Shown: in pieces, positions 22,203-31,617 of the stretch
How the letters are laid out: each line of letters opens with the position of its first letter
Numbering within the stretch: the first letter of the stretch is position 1
From: a virus
Direction: 5' to 3' (one strand)
DNA length: 37,237 bases
Virus record (IMG/VR): IMGVR_UViG_3300050821_006032
Location: 1-37,237 of that record
Program-made: the position numbers and the translations under genes
The notes under the pieces: generated by a model
The model's input: the letters and a program-made list of their open reading frames with translations, nothing else
Told to the model about the DNA's origin: nothing
The model's database searches: none

Positions 22203-22634
22203 ATGTCACAGGACACCACACAGGCCCACCCGGCCTATCAGGGGCTACCGGCTGACCTGACAGACCAGATCTTCGCCCGGCGTCTGCGGGTCATCCGCCA
22301 GGCCGCCGGGATGACACAGCAGCAGCTCGCCGAGCTGACAGGGATGCACCGCAGCGCGATCGCGAAGATCGAGGCCGGCGGCCGGGTCGTCTCGGTCGGC
22401 GAGGCCGTCCAGCTCGCCGCCGCGCTCGGCACCACCGTGGCCGAGCTAGCGGCCGATCCCGCCGACGGCGCTGACCGGGCCCGCGTCGAGGCGCAGGTGC
22501 GGCTCCGCAGCGCCGAACACGAGGCCGCGCGCCGGCACGAGCTGATGGAAGAGGCGCGGCTCCTTTATATGCACGCGCTCGAGGCGGCCGAGGACGCGCG
22601 GCAGCAGCTGGCCGCGCTAGACGGGGAGGACTGA
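22203..22634 (+). CDS. XRE-family helix-turn-helix regulator, 143 aa
   Basis: The ATG at 22203 has a GGAGGA ribosome site. Residues 24-85 form an XRE domain: FARRLRVIRQAAGMTQQQLA, ELTGMHRSAIAKIEAGGR and VGEAVQLAAALGTTVAEL. The C-terminal 55 residues form a long charged helix, likely for dimerisation. Only three bases separate it from the integrase gene, so it probably controls its own operon and perhaps the divergent xis-like gene. Confidence 0.8.
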   Translation: MSQDTTQAHPAYQGLPADLTDQIFARRLRVIRQAAGMTQQQLAELTGMHRSAIAKIEAGGRVVSVGEAVQLAAALGTTVAELAADPADGADRARVEAQVRLRSAEHEAARRHELMEEARLLYMHALEAAEDARQQLAALDGED

Positions 22635-25796: not shown

Positions 25797-26194
25797 TGCG
25801 TGTTCCTTTCGGTGATGGCGTCCCCGGCTGTTCCGGGGATCACGATGCGGGCCGGGCTGTCCGGCGCCGCGTGGTAGTGGCTGTGGTAGTGCAGCTCGAT
25901 CGCGGCCGGGGCCGCCTGTGCGATCTGTCGCGCGGCCGCCGCCGCGAGCCGGGCCGGGCGGGTGGTTTCCAGCTCGGCCGCGTGCTGCAGGGTCTTGCGC
26001 CGCAGCAGCACGGCGCCCACGACGGCACCGACGACCACGGCGGCCAGGAAGGCGGCGATGTACCAGATGAGCTGCAGGACGATCTCCGCCACGACGTAGA
26101 CGACCACCACCAAGGCGACCGGGCCGCCCAGCCCGCGGAGGTCAGGGCCGCTGCTCTGCCAGGTGCCGGAGCCCTGCCACGTGCCGCGCGCCAT
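25793..26194 (-). CDS. Membrane protein of the transfer-type module, 133 aa
   Basis: The ATG at 26194 shares a base with the previous stop and follows GGGAGGCGG. After a short N terminus (MARGTWQGSGTWQSSG) two membrane helices follow (PVALVVVVYVVAEIVLQLIW and AAFLAAVVVGAVVGAVLL), then a basic and Ala-rich helix and ELHYHSHYH. The topology resembles Spd/Tra accessory membrane proteins of actinomycete plasmids, but there is no sequence family match by eye. Confidence 0.6.
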   Translation of the reverse strand: MARGTWQGSGTWQSSGPDLRGLGGPVALVVVVYVVAEIVLQLIWYIAAFLAAVVVGAVVGAVLLRRKTLQHAAELETTRPARLAAAAARQIAQAAPAAIELHYHSHYHAAPDSPARIVIPGTAGDAITERNTQ

Positions 26195-26463
26195 CAGTCC
26201 GCCTCCCGTCGCCGCTCGACGCGCTCGCGGATGGTGTCGGCGGCGAGCACGGCGCCGCGGTGGACGAGCTGCGCGCCGGGCCGGAACTGGCGGCCCGTTC
26301 CCTGGCACCGTCCGCAGGCCGACCGGGCGCGGCCGCGTCGTTTGCGGCTGCCGCTGGCGCTGCACTTGCGGCAGCCCATCTTCGGCACGGCGAGCACGAA
26401 CAGGCCGTAGGCGGTGACCGCGGCCAAGCCGAGCAGGATGTCACGCATGATCGTGATGAGCAC
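26194..26463 (-). CDS. Membrane-anchored zinc-ribbon protein, 89 aa
   Basis: The GTG at 26463 follows AGGAGACTGCC. One membrane helix (ILLGLAAVTAYGLFVLAV) is followed by CRKCSASG and CGRCQGTG, two CxxCxxxG knuckles like those of the DnaJ zinc-binding region, then a basic tail. This TM-plus-CxxCxGxG arrangement is common among small proteins next to actinomycete transfer genes. Its function is unknown. Confidence 0.6.
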   Translation of the reverse strand: MLITIMRDILLGLAAVTAYGLFVLAVPKMGCRKCSASGSRKRRGRARSACGRCQGTGRQFRPGAQLVHRGAVLAADTIRERVERRREAD

Positions 26464-26472
26464 GGCAGTCTC

Positions 26473-26910
26473 CTATCCGCTGCTGTGATTCCGGGGGCAC
26501 GCGGCCACGCCTGCATCGAACCCGGCATCGAACCCGGCCGCTTCCCCCTGGTGCCATCCGGTCCTGTACGCCACGCACTGAGGGCGCTTGCACTGGTCGT
26601 CGCGGCACGACTCGAACGGGTGCTGCTCGGCCTGCCGCTTCTTGCGGGCCTTGGCGCGCTCGGCGGCCTTGGCCTTCTTGGCTGCCCGGGACTTGCTGGC
26701 CTTGAAGTCCGACTTCGGCTTGCAGACGTGCGTGAGCGGGTTGCCGAGCGGCTTGTTGCACGTCTCGCACTTGCCGAACGTGACCTGCGGTTTGAGCGTG
26801 GCGCGGCGCCCCGCCGCCCGGCCGCTGCTGACTACGCAGTCGTGCCTGATGCCCGTCCGCGGCTTGCCGCACCGGCCGCAAGTGACGACCAGTCGCGGCC
26901 TGTTCCGCAA
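26473..26910 (-). CDS. Multi-zinc-ribbon, Lys-rich protein, 145 aa
   Basis: The start is a TTG at 26910 preceded by GAGAGGGAGCGACG. Two ribbons are clear: CGRCGKPRTGIRHDC and CETCNKPLGNPLTHVC. A Lys/Ala-rich helix (KSRAAKKAKAAERAKARKKR) follows, then a third cluster, CRDDQCKRPQCVAY, and FDAGFDAG near the end. The basic helix and zinc sites suggest nucleic acid binding. It heads the small operon 3' of the translocase, beyond the repeat cluster at 27012-27085. Confidence 0.6.
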   Translation of the reverse strand: MRNRPRLVVTCGRCGKPRTGIRHDCVVSSGRAAGRRATLKPQVTFGKCETCNKPLGNPLTHVCKPKSDFKASKSRAAKKAKAAERAKARKKRQAEQHPFESCRDDQCKRPQCVAYRTGWHQGEAAGFDAGFDAGVAACPRNHSSG

Positions 26911-27011: not shown

Positions 27012-27085
27012 GTGTTCCGCCGTGTTCCGGCGCAACGGATATGTGCAGGTCAGCGAGTGTTCCGCTAGCGGAACACAGTGTTCCG
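27012..27085 (-). repeat. Cluster of 8-bp CGGAACAC repeats, candidate clt/TRS or operator
   Basis: On the minus strand CGGAACAC occurs directly at 27085-27078, 27064-27057, 27029-27022 and 27019-27012. An inverted copy (GTGTTCCG) at 27076-27069 makes 27057-27076 a perfect 20-bp palindrome centred on CTAG. The cluster starts 7 bases after the translocase stop. Streptomyces TraB proteins recognise clustered 8-bp repeats (clt) beside traB, so this is a candidate recognition site. It could instead be an operator for the gene at 26910. Confidence 0.65.
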
Positions 27086-27091
27086 GCGCGG

Positions 27092-29155
27092 CTAGACATC
27101 CGGATTCCCCAGCAGCGGGATGATGGCGGCCCGCTCGAACCCGGCCAGCGGCGCCCCGCCAGGCTCGCGGACCCGCTTGGGCGCCGCGCCGAGGTTGGCC
27201 AGCTGGCTCCGCACAGCCTCGGGCGTAATGTCCGCGTAGGCACCCGGGATCGACTCGGCGAGCCGCGCGGCGATCGTGGTCAGGTACAGCTTCGGGTCGT
27301 CGCGGAACACGGTCAGCACGTCCTCGGCGATCGACCGCACCTCGACGTCGGCGTCCTCGCCGAGCGCGTACCCGGTCAGCCGCCCGGCGGCCTGCCGCAT
27401 CGTGCGGGCCCGGGCGGCGATCACCTTGGACTGAGGCAGGTCAAACCCGTACCCGCGCATGATGACCGGGCTGAGTCCCTCGCCCGCGAAGTAGAACACG
27501 CCCCTGTCCTCGCGGGCGAACATCGTGGCCCTGATCCCGTTCTTGTACATCGACGTGCCCAGGACCATGTCGTTCTCGACCTGGCCCATCACCTTCAGGC
27601 ACATCCGCAGCACGGCGTTCGCGCTGATGCCCGTGGGTATCGAGTTGGCGTCCGGCCGCTGGGTGGCGAGCATCAGCATGATCCCGAGCGCCGGCCCGCG
27701 CTTGGTGAGGTCGGTCGCGATGGCGATCAGTTCCTTGCCGTACTCCGGGTGCTCGAACGGGATCTGGCACTCGTCCCACGCGATAGCGATCGGGTGCAGG
27801 CCGAGGCGCGGGTCATTGGCCAGCTCGGGCGTGACCTTGTTCTGAGGGCACCGGGTCTCGTCCATGTTGCGGATCACCTTCGTGCGGCGGCGCATCTCGG
27901 TTCGCATGGCGCGCATGTCGGCGACCAGGTACTCGATGTCTTCCGGGTCGTCGCCGGCCCGGTAGCGGTGCGCCACCTGGGCTACCGGCTTGAGGTCGCC
28001 GGTTCCCTTGAAGTCGTAGGCGTGTATCTCTACCCGCAGGTCAAGAGCGCAGATCAGCAGCAGCAGCCGCAGCAGGAACGTCTTGCCCATCCTTGGGATG
28101 CTGCCGATGATGATGCTCGCGAACATGAGCGTGACCGTGACGGCCCGGCCGCGCGGGTCAGTGCCGAACACCACCGGCGCGAACACGTCGGTGGTGCCAC
28201 GCCGCAGCAGCGGCCATGAGGGCTGCTCGGCGGTCGTCATGTCCTCGTCGCCGACGAACAGGGCAAGCGCGCCGGGATGGCGCTTGTGGATCGTCTCGGG
28301 CCACACCGTGCCGAGCTGGCGCCGCAGGCCGCTGGCGAGGTTTTCGCGCCGTTCGGACACCTCCCCGGCCGTCACGCCGTGCGGCAGGTCGAGCCGGGCG
28401 AGCCAGCCGGGCCCGTCGCGCTGGATCGGGTCGATGAGCACGATGGCGTTCGCCCGGTCCTTGGCGAGCGCCTGGTTGATGCCGGCCAGGCGCAGCCCTT
28501 CCAGGGCGCGCACGACCACCTCGAACGTCAGCGTCTCGTACGCCACCGGCACGGTGGCCGAGGTGAGGATCGGCTTGTCATCGGGATGGCCGAACCATGC
28601 CAGCAGCGGCAGCACCACGGCGGCGATAGGCAGCCATCCCAGCGGGGCGTACGCGGTCACGGTGCCGGCCAGCACCAGCAGCGCGGCCAGCTCGGCGGCG
28701 AGCACCCCGCCGCGGAACGCGCGCCGCTTAACCGCGTGCTTGTGCAGCGACTCCCACGTGCGGGGGTCGTTGTTCGCCACCGCCTGCAGCCGCAGGTAGG
28801 TCTGTTCCGTGCACCACCACCAGTTGACCTGCAGCCAGCCGATCTTGAGCACGCCGAGCCCGGCCCACCTGAGCGTGTTCCAGCCGCGGGCAGGCAGCCG
28901 GACGAGGTGGTAGAGGAAGTGATGCCGGCCGCGCTTGAGGTGCCAGCCGTAATGCTTCCTGGCGGCGGCCAGCGTCTGCATGTGCGCGGGCAGGATCGGG
29001 CGCAGCTCGGCGGCCTCGCCGAACTTAGCCTTGCGCGGCGCGGGAAGCTGGGCGGCGCCCGGGAACGGGACGACCGTCCCCTCGATCGCGTCGTCGGGTA
29101 CGGGCGCGGTCTCGTCGCCACCGGCATCTACCGGCCACGGCCTGTCATCGGCCAT
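27092..29155 (-). CDS. FtsK/SpoIIIE-type DNA translocase, AICE transfer-protein-like, 687 aa
   Basis: A hexameric ATP-driven dsDNA pump is expected. Residues 1-140 are a cytoplasmic N terminus with the KRGRHHFLYHLVRLPARGWN region. Residues about 148-190 hold two membrane helices. The FtsK motor has Walker A GSIPRMGKT at 351-359, Walker B IAWDECQ with Asp461/Glu462, and ATQRPDANSIPTGI near 497-510. Residues about 605-675 look like a winged helix (LTTIAARLAESIPGAYADIT, EAVRSQLANLG), the place of the DNA-recognition gamma domain. It matches FtsK proteins of actinomycete integrative elements, where one such protein transfers dsDNA between mycelia. The ATG at 29155 follows GAGGTG; a GTG at 29164 is possible. 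Confidence 0.88.
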   Translation of the reverse strand: MADDRPWPVDAGGDETAPVPDDAIEGTVVPFPGAAQLPAPRKAKFGEAAELRPILPAHMQTLAAARKHYGWHLKRGRHHFLYHLVRLPARGWNTLRWAGLGVLKIGWLQVNWWWCTEQTYLRLQAVANNDPRTWESLHKHAVKRRAFRGGVLAAELAALLVLAGTVTAYAPLGWLPIAAVVLPLLAWFGHPDDKPILTSATVPVAYETLTFEVVVRALEGLRLAGINQALAKDRANAIVLIDPIQRDGPGWLARLDLPHGVTAGEVSERRENLASGLRRQLGTVWPETIHKRHPGALALFVGDEDMTTAEQPSWPLLRRGTTDVFAPVVFGTDPRGRAVTVTLMFASIIIGSIPRMGKTFLLRLLLLICALDLRVEIHAYDFKGTGDLKPVAQVAHRYRAGDDPEDIEYLVADMRAMRTEMRRRTKVIRNMDETRCPQNKVTPELANDPRLGLHPIAIAWDECQIPFEHPEYGKELIAIATDLTKRGPALGIMLMLATQRPDANSIPTGISANAVLRMCLKVMGQVENDMVLGTSMYKNGIRATMFAREDRGVFYFAGEGLSPVIMRGYGFDLPQSKVIAARARTMRQAAGRLTGYALGEDADVEVRSIAEDVLTVFRDDPKLYLTTIAARLAESIPGAYADITPEAVRSQLANLGAAPKRVREPGGAPLAGFERAAIIPLLGNPDV

Positions 29156-29164
29156 GATGGACAC

Positions 29165-29358: not shown

Positions 29359-29560
29359 CGTGGTCACCCCCTTTCGGGTCGGTCTCTTGCGGGCTGTGGC
29401 CGTTGGCTTCGGCGAGCACCAGCTGACGCACTTCGCTCGCGAGCCCCGCATGCCAGTCTCTATGCCGCGTCTTGCCGTCCTCCGGGACCAGCGCCCCGCA
29501 CGTCCAGCACTGCACAACGCTGGCCGCCGTCAGCGTGGCGACCCTGAAATAACTATTCAT
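29345..29560 (-). CDS. Small zinc-finger protein with a duplicated C-terminal tail, 71 aa
   Basis: The ATG at 29560 follows GAAGGAGATCGCG and overlaps the DUF2637 gene end. CWTCG at residues 28-32, with H42 and H46 (TRHRDWH), gives a CCHH zinc finger. The tail EVRQLVLAEANGHSPQE resembles the C terminus of the upstream DUF2637 protein (KVRQLVLGSMNGDAPQA), and 20 bases are identical at the DNA level. Confidence 0.6.
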   Translation of the reverse strand: MNSYFRVATLTAASVVQCWTCGALVPEDGKTRHRDWHAGLASEVRQLVLAEANGHSPQETDPKGGDHDEQR

Positions 29561-30215
29561 CGCGATCTCCTTCCGGCGCCTGCGGCGCATCTCCGTTCAT
29601 GCTCCCGAGCACCAGCTGACGCACTTTGCCCGCGAGTTTCGGGGGCAGCTCAAACCGCATCGCGAGGCCTCGCGCGCTGTGCGGGTTACCCGCCTGCGCG
29701 GTCGCGATCATCGCCCGGATCGCCGCGTCCAGCGCATCATGCGCGACACCCGGAACGTCCGGCGCATCTTGCGTCGCGGGCGCCTGGCGGCGGCGCGACC
29801 GCAGCCACCGCTCCAGCATGAAGCACGCCACGGTGAACGCGACCGCGGGCCATGTTGACACGACCGCCGCCAGCGCGCCGTGCGGCAGGCCGTACTCGAG
29901 GTTCGCGAACAGCGTCGCGGCGACGCCGAGTGCGACGCCGAGCCACCCGAGCGCCGACCCGGCAGCCAGCAGGACCGACCCCGCCACGATGAGCCCGTCG
30001 ATCGGCACCGCGAGCAGGTGCGCGGCGACCTGACCCTGGTAGGTCCGCAGGCCAAGCGCCGTGATGTGGCCGTAGCTGACCACCCCGGCGACCGCGGCGA
30101 CCGTGGCGACCGGCAGCGCGACGACGGCCAGCACGCGGTTCTGCGACGGCAGTGCGATGCGCGGCGCGGGGTGACGCTCCGGCAGCCTGACTGCCAGCCA
30201 GCCGGGCAGCTTCAC
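29553..30215 (-). CDS. DUF2637 membrane protein, 220 aa
   Basis: The GTG at 30215 overlaps the upstream stop (GTGA). The DUF2637 signature is clear: VVSYGHITALGLRTYQGQVA, AVPIDGLIVAGSVLLAAGSA, WLGVALGVAATLFANLEYGL, then STWPAVAFTVACFMLERWL, giving four membrane helices. A C-terminal cytoplasmic helical tail follows. DUF2637 proteins typically sit beside FtsK/TraB genes in actinomycete plasmids and AICEs and may assist DNA spreading (Spd-like), which is inferred. Confidence 0.85.
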   Translation of the reverse strand: MKLPGWLAVRLPERHPAPRIALPSQNRVLAVVALPVATVAAVAGVVSYGHITALGLRTYQGQVAAHLLAVPIDGLIVAGSVLLAAGSALGWLGVALGVAATLFANLEYGLPHGALAAVVSTWPAVAFTVACFMLERWLRSRRRQAPATQDAPDVPGVAHDALDAAIRAMIATAQAGNPHSARGLAMRFELPPKLAGKVRQLVLGSMNGDAPQAPEGDRDE

Positions 30216-30424
30216 AGCTGCACCACCCTCGGCCGCAGCCGCAGCCCGTCGCGCAGCAGCAGCCGGGCCAGCACGAGCACGATGGCGACCAGGCCGAGCA
30301 CCAGGACCAGGGCGACCAGGCCGAGCACAGACGTCGGGCCGAGCACCGGCAGGTTTACGCGGGCGTGCGCCGACACGAGCAGGGCGGCCAGCGTCACGGC
30401 GAGCCACGTCAGTAGGGTTTCCAT
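30212..30424 (-). CDS. Small double-spanning membrane protein, 70 aa
   Basis: GCAGGAGGACCA is a strong ribosome site before the ATG at 30424. Two hydrophobic stretches (LLTWLAVTLAALLVSA and VLGLVALVLVLGLVAIVLVL) are followed by a basic end (LLLRDGLRLRPRV). It is translationally coupled to the DUF2637 gene. It resembles the short Spd-type membrane proteins of Streptomyces conjugative plasmids in size and topology only. Confidence 0.6.
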   Translation of the reverse strand: METLLTWLAVTLAALLVSAHARVNLPVLGPTSVLGLVALVLVLGLVAIVLVLARLLLRDGLRLRPRVVQL

Positions 30425-30454
30425 TGGTCCTCCTGCTAGTCCAGGTGGGCAAGT

Positions 30455-30854: not shown

Positions 30855-31187
30855 GTGCCTGTTCATCCTGTCTTGCTGAAAGCGGCCGCAGTAGGCCTCT
30901 GGGCCGCGGCGATGGGAATGTCATTCACGGCCGCCGACTGGCGCCTGTGGGCCTGCCTCGTCGCCGGCGCCGCGGTCGCGTCCCTGGCGGCGCTCCAGCA
31001 GATCCTGGTCACGAAGTCGACGAGGATCTACGAGGCGCAAACGCGAGCTGTGCTCACACGGCCGTTCCACCGGGGGGACACCGGTCCGCTGCCCGCGATT
31101 ATCCCGCAGCAGCCTGCCCCGGGGAGCGAGCCGCACGCGCGGCTTTCCGTGCTCGGTAGGTCGCACGGGCAGCACGCGAGTCGCTGA
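30855..31187 (+). CDS. Small membrane protein, 110 aa
   Basis: The GTG at 30855 follows GGGAGGGGAGC. Two membrane helices (LLKAAAVGLWAAAMGMSF and LWACLVAGAAVASLAAL) precede a polar, Pro-rich tail. The last 89 bases overlap the convergent XRE gene on the other strand. No family is recognised. It is the only plus-strand gene between attP and the early operon. Confidence 0.55.
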   Translation: MPVHPVLLKAAAVGLWAAAMGMSFTAADWRLWACLVAGAAVASLAALQQILVTKSTRIYEAQTRAVLTRPFHRGDTGPLPAIIPQQPAPGSEPHARLSVLGRSHGQHASR

Positions 31188-31473
31188 TCAGCTGCCGCTT
31201 CATGTAATCCGGGAGGTCGGGGTCGGCAAGCACCTCGGCCTCCCAGTCGTCTTCGGGGACGAGTTCCGCAGCCGCGGGCTCGTCCCCGAGCTTTATGCCC
31301 AGGACCTCTTCCAGTGCCCCGATGCGGTTCCTCGGGACGCGGTGGCCTAGTTCCCAGTTGCCGACGCTGCGCGTGCTGACGCCAACCTTGCCGGCCAGCT
31401 GCTTCTGGGTCCAGTGCTGGCGTTCGCGCGCGCGGCGGATGGCCAGTCCGAGAGCAGGTTCGGGCTGCGTCAT
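31099..31473 (-). CDS. XRE-family regulator, candidate immunity repressor, 124 aa
   Basis: Residues 8-62 form an HTH_3 domain: LGLAIRRARERQHWTQKQLA, KVGVSTRSVGNWELGHRVPR, RIGALEEVLGI. The C-terminal part is acidic, then basic and helical (DPDLPDYMKRQLISDSRAAR). It diverges from the small XRE gene at 31618 across a region with nested inverted repeats, the arrangement of a repressor/Cro switch. Which one is the lysogenic repressor is not certain. Confidence 0.78.
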   Translation of the reverse strand: MTQPEPALGLAIRRARERQHWTQKQLAGKVGVSTRSVGNWELGHRVPRNRIGALEEVLGIKLGDEPAAAELVPEDDWEAEVLADPDLPDYMKRQLISDSRAARATYRARKAARAARSPGQAAAG

Positions 31474-31617
31474 GCCCACAAGTGTCCCAGAAACTTAGCG
31501 CAATTAAAAGAAACTATGCAGCGTATGGACGTGACGCTATCGTTACATTGCTTCACTTTCGTTCTCTTTCGTGTTTCTGGTTGCGTCACGTTCTGCTCCG
31601 TGCGTAGTGTTTCGCCC
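31474..31617. promoter_or_regulatory. AT-rich operator region between divergent XRE genes
   Basis: The region is much lower in GC than its surroundings. CCAGAAAC at 31487-31494 and GTTTCTGG at 31573-31580 are inverted 8-bp repeats, with an AGAAAC copy at 31509-31514. Inside them CGTGACGC (31530-31537) and GCGTCACG (31583-31590) form a second 8-bp inverted pair. The repeats suggest two operator classes or a looped operator. Exact -10/-35 boxes cannot be fixed by eye. Confidence 0.6.

Follow-up and report, generated by a model that had tools for sequence, protein, structure and literature searches.

A clt-like repeat cluster as the predicted recognition site of an adjoining FtsK/TraB-type translocase in a phage contig

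Introduction

The locus described here raises the question whether a cluster of short repeats, located directly behind the gene for a conjugation-type DNA translocase in a phage genome, is the site at which this translocase recognizes DNA and is loaded onto it. In Streptomyces and its relatives, double-stranded plasmids, chromosomal genes and actinomycete integrative and conjugative elements (AICEs) spread by TraB-type conjugation, and the FtsK/SpoIIIE chromosome pumps are hexameric dsDNA translocases that are guided by octamers (KOPS/SRS) through a C-terminal winged helix. AICEs with TraB/FtsK translocases are known in actinomycetes (PMC3218068, PMC9513070), and for TraB of pSVH1 the C-terminal winged helix is reported to be the part that binds octamers, according to work cited in PMC3583192. 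We analysed IMGVR_UViG_3300050821_006032, a linear IMG/VR contig of 37,237 bp that is possibly incomplete; this whole stretch is called the window below. An earlier reading of its letters (the original prediction) had proposed that the cluster is the loading site for the FtsK-type protein encoded next to it.

The octamers form one cluster behind the translocase gene

The translocase gene and the repeats behind it comprise the following features:

27092..29164, minus strand: FtsK/SpoIIIE-TraB-type DNA translocase, 690 aa
27012..27085, minus strand: clt-like repeat cluster, five CGGAACAC half-sites, four on the translocase coding strand and one inverted
27057..27076, no strand: perfect 20-bp palindrome GTGTTCCGCTAGCGGAACAC = GTGTTCCG-CTAG-CGGAACAC, exact match
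27012..27029, minus strand: direct half-site pair CGGAACAC-GG-CGGAACAC, with the counterpart CGGAACAC-G-CGGAACAC in loci L247 and L449
27045..27053, minus strand: conserved CTGACCTGC element between half-sites
27303..27310, plus strand: lone CGGAACAC inside the translocase gene, a chance copy

The five copies of CGGAACAC in the cluster are located at 27012-27019(-), 27022-27029(-), 27057-27064(-), 27069-27076(+) and 27078-27085(-). In 300 simulated windows, no 74-bp stretch held more than two copies of this octamer as compared to the five observed, and in 60 simulated windows no 8-mer of any kind exceeded three copies per 74 bp. Four direct octamers and one inverted octamer within 74 bp, together with the 20-bp palindrome, are therefore borne out as described earlier, both by the counts and by the simulations. 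The translocase stop codon occupies 27092-27094 and six bases separate it from the first octamer; the distance of 7 bp that had been given is right for the first base of the octamer and not for the spacer.

Across the window CGGAACAC occurs nine times, whereas 100 dinucleotide shuffles averaged 1.6 copies per window and never exceeded 5. The four copies outside the cluster (at 27303, 11503, 13843 and 19239) are close to chance expectation, and the in-gene copy at 27303, which had been listed as a further copy, carries no weight. The octamer is thus not at background level: it forms one cluster in the window, unlike in simulated windows. KOPS are dispersed and polar along the chromosome, whereas elements of the window's type have a single cluster that includes inverted copies. 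A dispersed KOPS-like polarity was considered as well, and was set aside because the copies outside the cluster are at background.

A TraB-homologous motor with a predicted C-terminal winged helix

The translocase matches PHROG 1358 (E 7e-21), and the profile of its family matches the solved FtsK motors 2iuu and 2iut with an E of about 1e-13. Its motor is homologous to that of pSVH1 TraB (29% identity over 346 aa, E 2e-32). Against the NCBIfam plasmid_TraB equivalog it scored 14.5 bits with a cutoff of 800, which places it outside that model, like the protein of locus L012 (24.3). Judged by these sequence comparisons, the translocase is of the same superfamily and mode as plasmid_TraB, outside that curated equivalog.

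The following parts of the gene are relevant for DNA recognition:

27107..27334, minus strand: C-terminal segment; most of the domain is above pLDDT 90 in the AlphaFold2 model, and the partial Mantel scan has its peak here (see below)
27137..27172, minus strand: wing and flanking strands, residues 665-676, VREPGGAPLAGF
27143-27145 (codon), minus strand: residue 674, which predicts half-site base 6

The end of the protein had been called wHTH-like, and the AlphaFold2 model of the C-terminal 125 residues is indeed a winged helix, with a pLDDT above 90 over most of it (one plasmid-record row was left out of the alignment). In this model residue 674 is part of the second strand, at the base of the wing. 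Family libraries and sequence searches against solved structures gave no name to the C-terminal domain. Foldseek and VIA-align returned generic winged-helix proteins only (best Z 6.8), and FtsK-gamma was not among the matches listed.

Phage context and neighbouring genes

The window encodes a major head protein, a tape measure protein, a large tail protein, an endolysin, an integrase and repressor-like proteins. Head, tail and lysis genes of a tailed phage are thus all present, and the phage setting of the cluster stands. Of the components of an AICE, an integrase and a Tra protein are encoded. No replication initiator of the RepSA, RepAM or Prim-Pol type was recognised in the scanned reading frames of this possibly incomplete contig. 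The genes next to the translocase and the cluster are:

26473..26910, minus strand: small Cys-rich protein downstream of the translocase, start codon uncertain; a 51% identical relative adjoins the L404 translocase
26194..26463, minus strand: small membrane protein with paired CxxC motifs; L247 has a similar one behind its repeats
29553..30452, minus strand: reading frame with weak DUF2637 similarity (E 0.0017, below the Pfam cutoff), upstream of the translocase

In related plasmids, DUF2637 proteins precede FtsK. A small membrane protein with paired CxxC motifs, of the type encoded at 26194-26463, was seen behind the repeats in several elements, and is possibly a conserved partner of the translocase.

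The position of the cluster is conserved while its sequence changes

A homologue of the translocase was not found in the INPHARED phage collection, and the comparison was therefore drawn from genomes, plasmids and IMG/VR. In actinobacteria the translocase is very common. Genome contigs contributed 45 translocase loci, two of which are distant matches outside the family. The translocase was present in 50 of 395 genomes drawn from the actinobacterial class, and in 98 of 249, 76 of 251 and 114 of 251 genomes of three actinobacterial families; the family also occurs in plasmids and in viral contigs. For the analysis of the repeats we used 249 non-redundant actinobacterial genes for which 140 bp or more of DNA past the stop was available.

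A palindrome with a repeated half-site was found between -15 and +150 from the stop in 204 of these 249 loci. As controls, a stretch 400 bp further downstream gave 45 of 246, and the interior of the gene gave 19 of 249. Conservation of the cluster in homologues, which had been named as a check, is thus seen in its position, which is kept while the repeat sequence changes. Across 14 long loci, all 23 occurrences of the palindrome GCTAGRYCTAGC are at the cluster, with none in the other 219 kb. The layout that recurs behind the stop consists of one or two 12-bp palindromes GCTA-NNNN-TAGC, a single half-site, in many cases CTGRYCWG, and a closely spaced direct half-site pair, all within about 120 bp; the 20-bp palindrome of the window has the same geometry with a four-base centre. 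Clustered short direct repeats beside the translocase gene, as in a clt locus, are present in the window and across the family. In a minority (L005 and L006) the repeats are found about 260-340 bp behind the stop, and a small gene apparently intervenes. The motif CTGRYCWG was found in 96 of 192 relatives (6 expected), with several half-site classes and about 73 bp behind the translocase stop, and may be the binding site of another, constant factor.

Wing residues and half-site bases change together

To compare repeats with proteins, we numbered the half-site bases h1 to h8 outward from the palindrome centre in the 192 loci with a clean palindrome. Half-site calls came from a DNA-only rule that was blind to the protein, and a hand-made list of misplaced palindrome cores, drawn up without reference to the protein, was removed. 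This replaced an earlier calling procedure, which took overlaps of neighbouring half-sites as palindromes and gave a weaker coupling.

The X in the wing motif NRXG, residue 674 in window numbering, was found to predict h6: R was paired with C in 126 of 126 loci, I with A in 23 of 23 and M with A in 7 of 7, and among the rarer residues N, S and T were paired with A (5 of 5) and Q with G (2 of 2). With K at this position h6 was mixed (C, A or G), and the residue-base code is therefore not complete. At h1, G was present in 39 of 40 loci with RR wings, and C or T with W-type wings. Bases h3 to h5 vary too rarely, and h7 and h8 too loosely, for contacts to be assigned.

Since relatedness can mimic such residue-base links, changes were counted on a tree built from the motor domain only. 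On this tree h6 changed 24 times and residue 674 changed 27 times, with a joint count of 28, which means that 23 of the 24 h6 changes coincide with a change of the residue. The next best of 596 columns had 13 shared changes, and the top four columns are all in the C-terminal domain. A partial Mantel analysis of repeat distance against protein-segment distance likewise peaked at the winged helix (0.50), with values of at most 0.23 outside the C-terminal region.

Further wing types with quite different palindromes were seen at L189, L190, L191, L248, L249, L252, L254, L255, L273 and L275, namely (T/N)KRGxGG wings with GGTTTCGG, NRRGSGGNRKG with GGTATCGG and VKxxGRxxxKG with TCCGCKAC, and these loci are material to extend the residue-base code.

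Wing and repeats are exchanged as one unit

The motors of L118 and L199 are 98% identical, whereas their wings (RNRRGF vs ASRIGI) and repeats (CTAGC vs CTAGA) differ. Over the motor the DNA of the two is for the most part 83-97% identical. In the final 100 bp of the gene and the 100 bp that follow it, identity is only 69-73%, and past the repeats it is 93% again. Control pairs of the same specificity had no dip in identity at the gene end or the repeats, and L135 and L136 show the same joint replacement at 94% motor identity. These joint swaps indicate that the gene end and the repeats behave as one exchangeable unit. Among relatives, co-variation of the repeat with the C-terminal domain, which the original prediction had proposed to look for, is thus found as residue-by-residue coupling and as cassette exchange, and both point to the translocase and not to a repressor.

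The wing and repeat type of the window

The window wing VREPGGAPLAGF is unlike the common NRRG type, and its repeat is likewise unlike the common one. The nearest relatives with similar wings share the window's repeat, a type that rests on four or five relatives. L404, L247 and L449 have REPGG/RETGK-like wings and GCGGAAC repeats (GTTCCGCY/RGCGGAAC). L404 is another phage-type contig (with a tape-measure/lysis gene), and its translocase is 62% identical to that of the window; it has one palindrome, GTTCCGCTAGCGGAACAC, and not the full cluster. Between L404 and the window, similarity was detected only in the translocase, the repeats and the two small neighbouring genes. L247 and L449, both in genome G687, combine RGCGGAAC palindromes with the direct pair CGGAACACGCGGAACAC, while L450 in the same genome has a diverged wing and CGTAAC repeats. 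L247 and L449, both behind FtsK genes of the window's type, are the only places in G687 with closely spaced CGGAACAC pairs.

When viral contigs and genomes were searched for CGGAACAC pairs, most matches were due to chance, and only L404, L422 (the same place as L247) and L449 were located behind an FtsK gene. One actinobacterial genome has a tandem array of CGGAACAC units (G652:C26:72306-72401) with eleven overlapping pair matches. In the DNA examined around it (L424) no adjacent FtsK gene was seen, and the array is probably an unrelated tandem repeat.

Discussion

Altogether, the conserved position, the co-variation, the cassette swaps and the arrangement in pSVH1 support the predicted clt-like nature of the site: the 74-bp cluster is very probably the recognition and loading site of the adjoining FtsK/TraB-type translocase. 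A binding specificity of this translocase for the cluster is strongly suggested by the sequence comparisons. Position, residue-base co-variation and swaps were computed; that the translocase binds, loads as a hexamer and carries the phage or prophage genome from hypha to hypha is inferred from the precedent of TraB. In such a mechanism the C-terminal winged helix would read half-sites of about 8 bp (here CGGAACAC), and several half-sites, two fused as a palindrome and two as a direct pair, would gather protomers. These would assemble into a hexamer on the element's own DNA, which would then be pumped as double-stranded DNA. As the coding part for the winged helix touches the repeats, specificity and site would be inherited and exchanged as one cassette.

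The closest known arrangement is that of pSVH1. There GACCCGGA, which we take to be the published TraB octamer, is present in four direct copies and one inverted copy that start 16 bases after the traB stop; the DNA behind these copies includes CTGACCTGCG and CTGACCTGCGCAAAC. Both elements therefore have 8-bp octamers in the same number and orientation behind the stop of a homologous FtsK-type motor (at 16 vs six bases), and both have a CTGACCTGC element, within the repeats in the window and behind them in pSVH1. The octamers themselves differ (GACCCGGA vs CGGAACAC), which agrees, on re-examination of the sequences, with the earlier statement that the window's octamer is not of the pSVH1 type. 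In addition, the C-terminal domains have no detectable sequence similarity, a 20-bp palindrome was not found in pSVH1, and pSVH1 is a plasmid whereas the window is a phage.

In pWTY27, clt is made up of 16 bp from traA and the 159 bp next to it; TraA binds this site, and transfer requires it (PMC3583192). As in the window's family, its repeats start at the 3' end of the translocase gene. It differs in its 7-bp TGACACC and CCCGCCC repeats, in being part of a theta plasmid, and in that its requirement for transfer is experimental while the site in the window is predicted. AICEs are similar in that most homologues are in actinobacterial genomes and related plasmids share the translocase and its DUF2637 neighbour; they differ in that the module of the window is part of a contig with capsid, tail and lysis genes.

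We considered whether the cluster could instead be an operator, through which a separate repressor (KorA/KorSA-, GntR- or XRE-like) would control the genes downstream of the translocase. Perfect palindromes are typical of operators, this one is located between the translocase and the next gene, and XRE-type and repressor-like proteins are encoded at 31099-31479 and 22203-22634 of the window; moreover, SpdA2 of pIJ101 binds conserved palindromes on Streptomyces plasmids (PMC4170104). However, the repeats co-vary at single-residue level with the winged helix of the translocase itself and are exchanged together with it, neither repressor gene has an octamer nearby, and the confinement of GCTAGRYCTAGC to the cluster in the 14 long loci means that there is no second operator. 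We therefore regard a repressor operator as very unlikely.

Somewhat less improbable, but still unlikely, is that the translocase binds the cluster mainly for transcription control, as autoregulation of a transfer operon, and not for loading in transfer. The cluster is in an intergenic region before a downstream gene, and all co-variation evidence says only that the translocase binds. Against this stand the site at the same place in pWTY27, which is required in cis for transfer (PMC3583192), the same arrangement in pSVH1, and the location of the cluster behind and not before the translocase gene. Iterons are clustered short repeats too, as with the 8-bp iterons at the repA locus of pWTY27 (PMC3583192), and a replication origin or a partition site could happen to follow the translocase gene. 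Neither would explain co-variation with the DNA-binding domain of the translocase, and related plasmids encode primase and replication genes elsewhere, which makes this explanation extremely improbable.

For about 200 elements the analysis yields a predicted site, and it provides part of a rule by which individual bases can be read from individual residues; the sequence of a translocase can thereby be used to predict which elements share a specificity. It also suggests a reason for the location of the site at the gene end, where specificity and site can be swapped in one recombination event. The analysis also places a TraB-like translocase-and-site module in phage contigs, where it may serve travel between hyphae or may merely be inherited. 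A wider view, which we put forward tentatively and hold to be slightly less probable than its negation, is that some temperate phages of actinobacteria possess a full conjugation module with a single protein (a translocase and its own clt) and, besides forming virions, may pass their genomes between the cells of the mycelium as naked dsDNA. Winged helix and repeats would then be an exchangeable specificity cassette found across actinobacteria, with a readable amino-acid-to-base code, and would determine the element whose DNA a given pump accepts.

Translocase modules of this kind recur on phages. Phage-like elements with the same translocase family are L005, L006, L010, pPaSha2 (L008) and L404; L005 has terminase, portal and head genes near the translocase, pPaSha2 has holin and Bet, and a Pseudonocardia broussonetiae plasmid combines a terminase with a translocase of this family. 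Finally, the 4.7-Mb genome G687 contains four translocases of the family (L138/L451, L247, L449 and L450) with at least three repeat specificities, and is a natural case in which cross-talk between elements could be studied.
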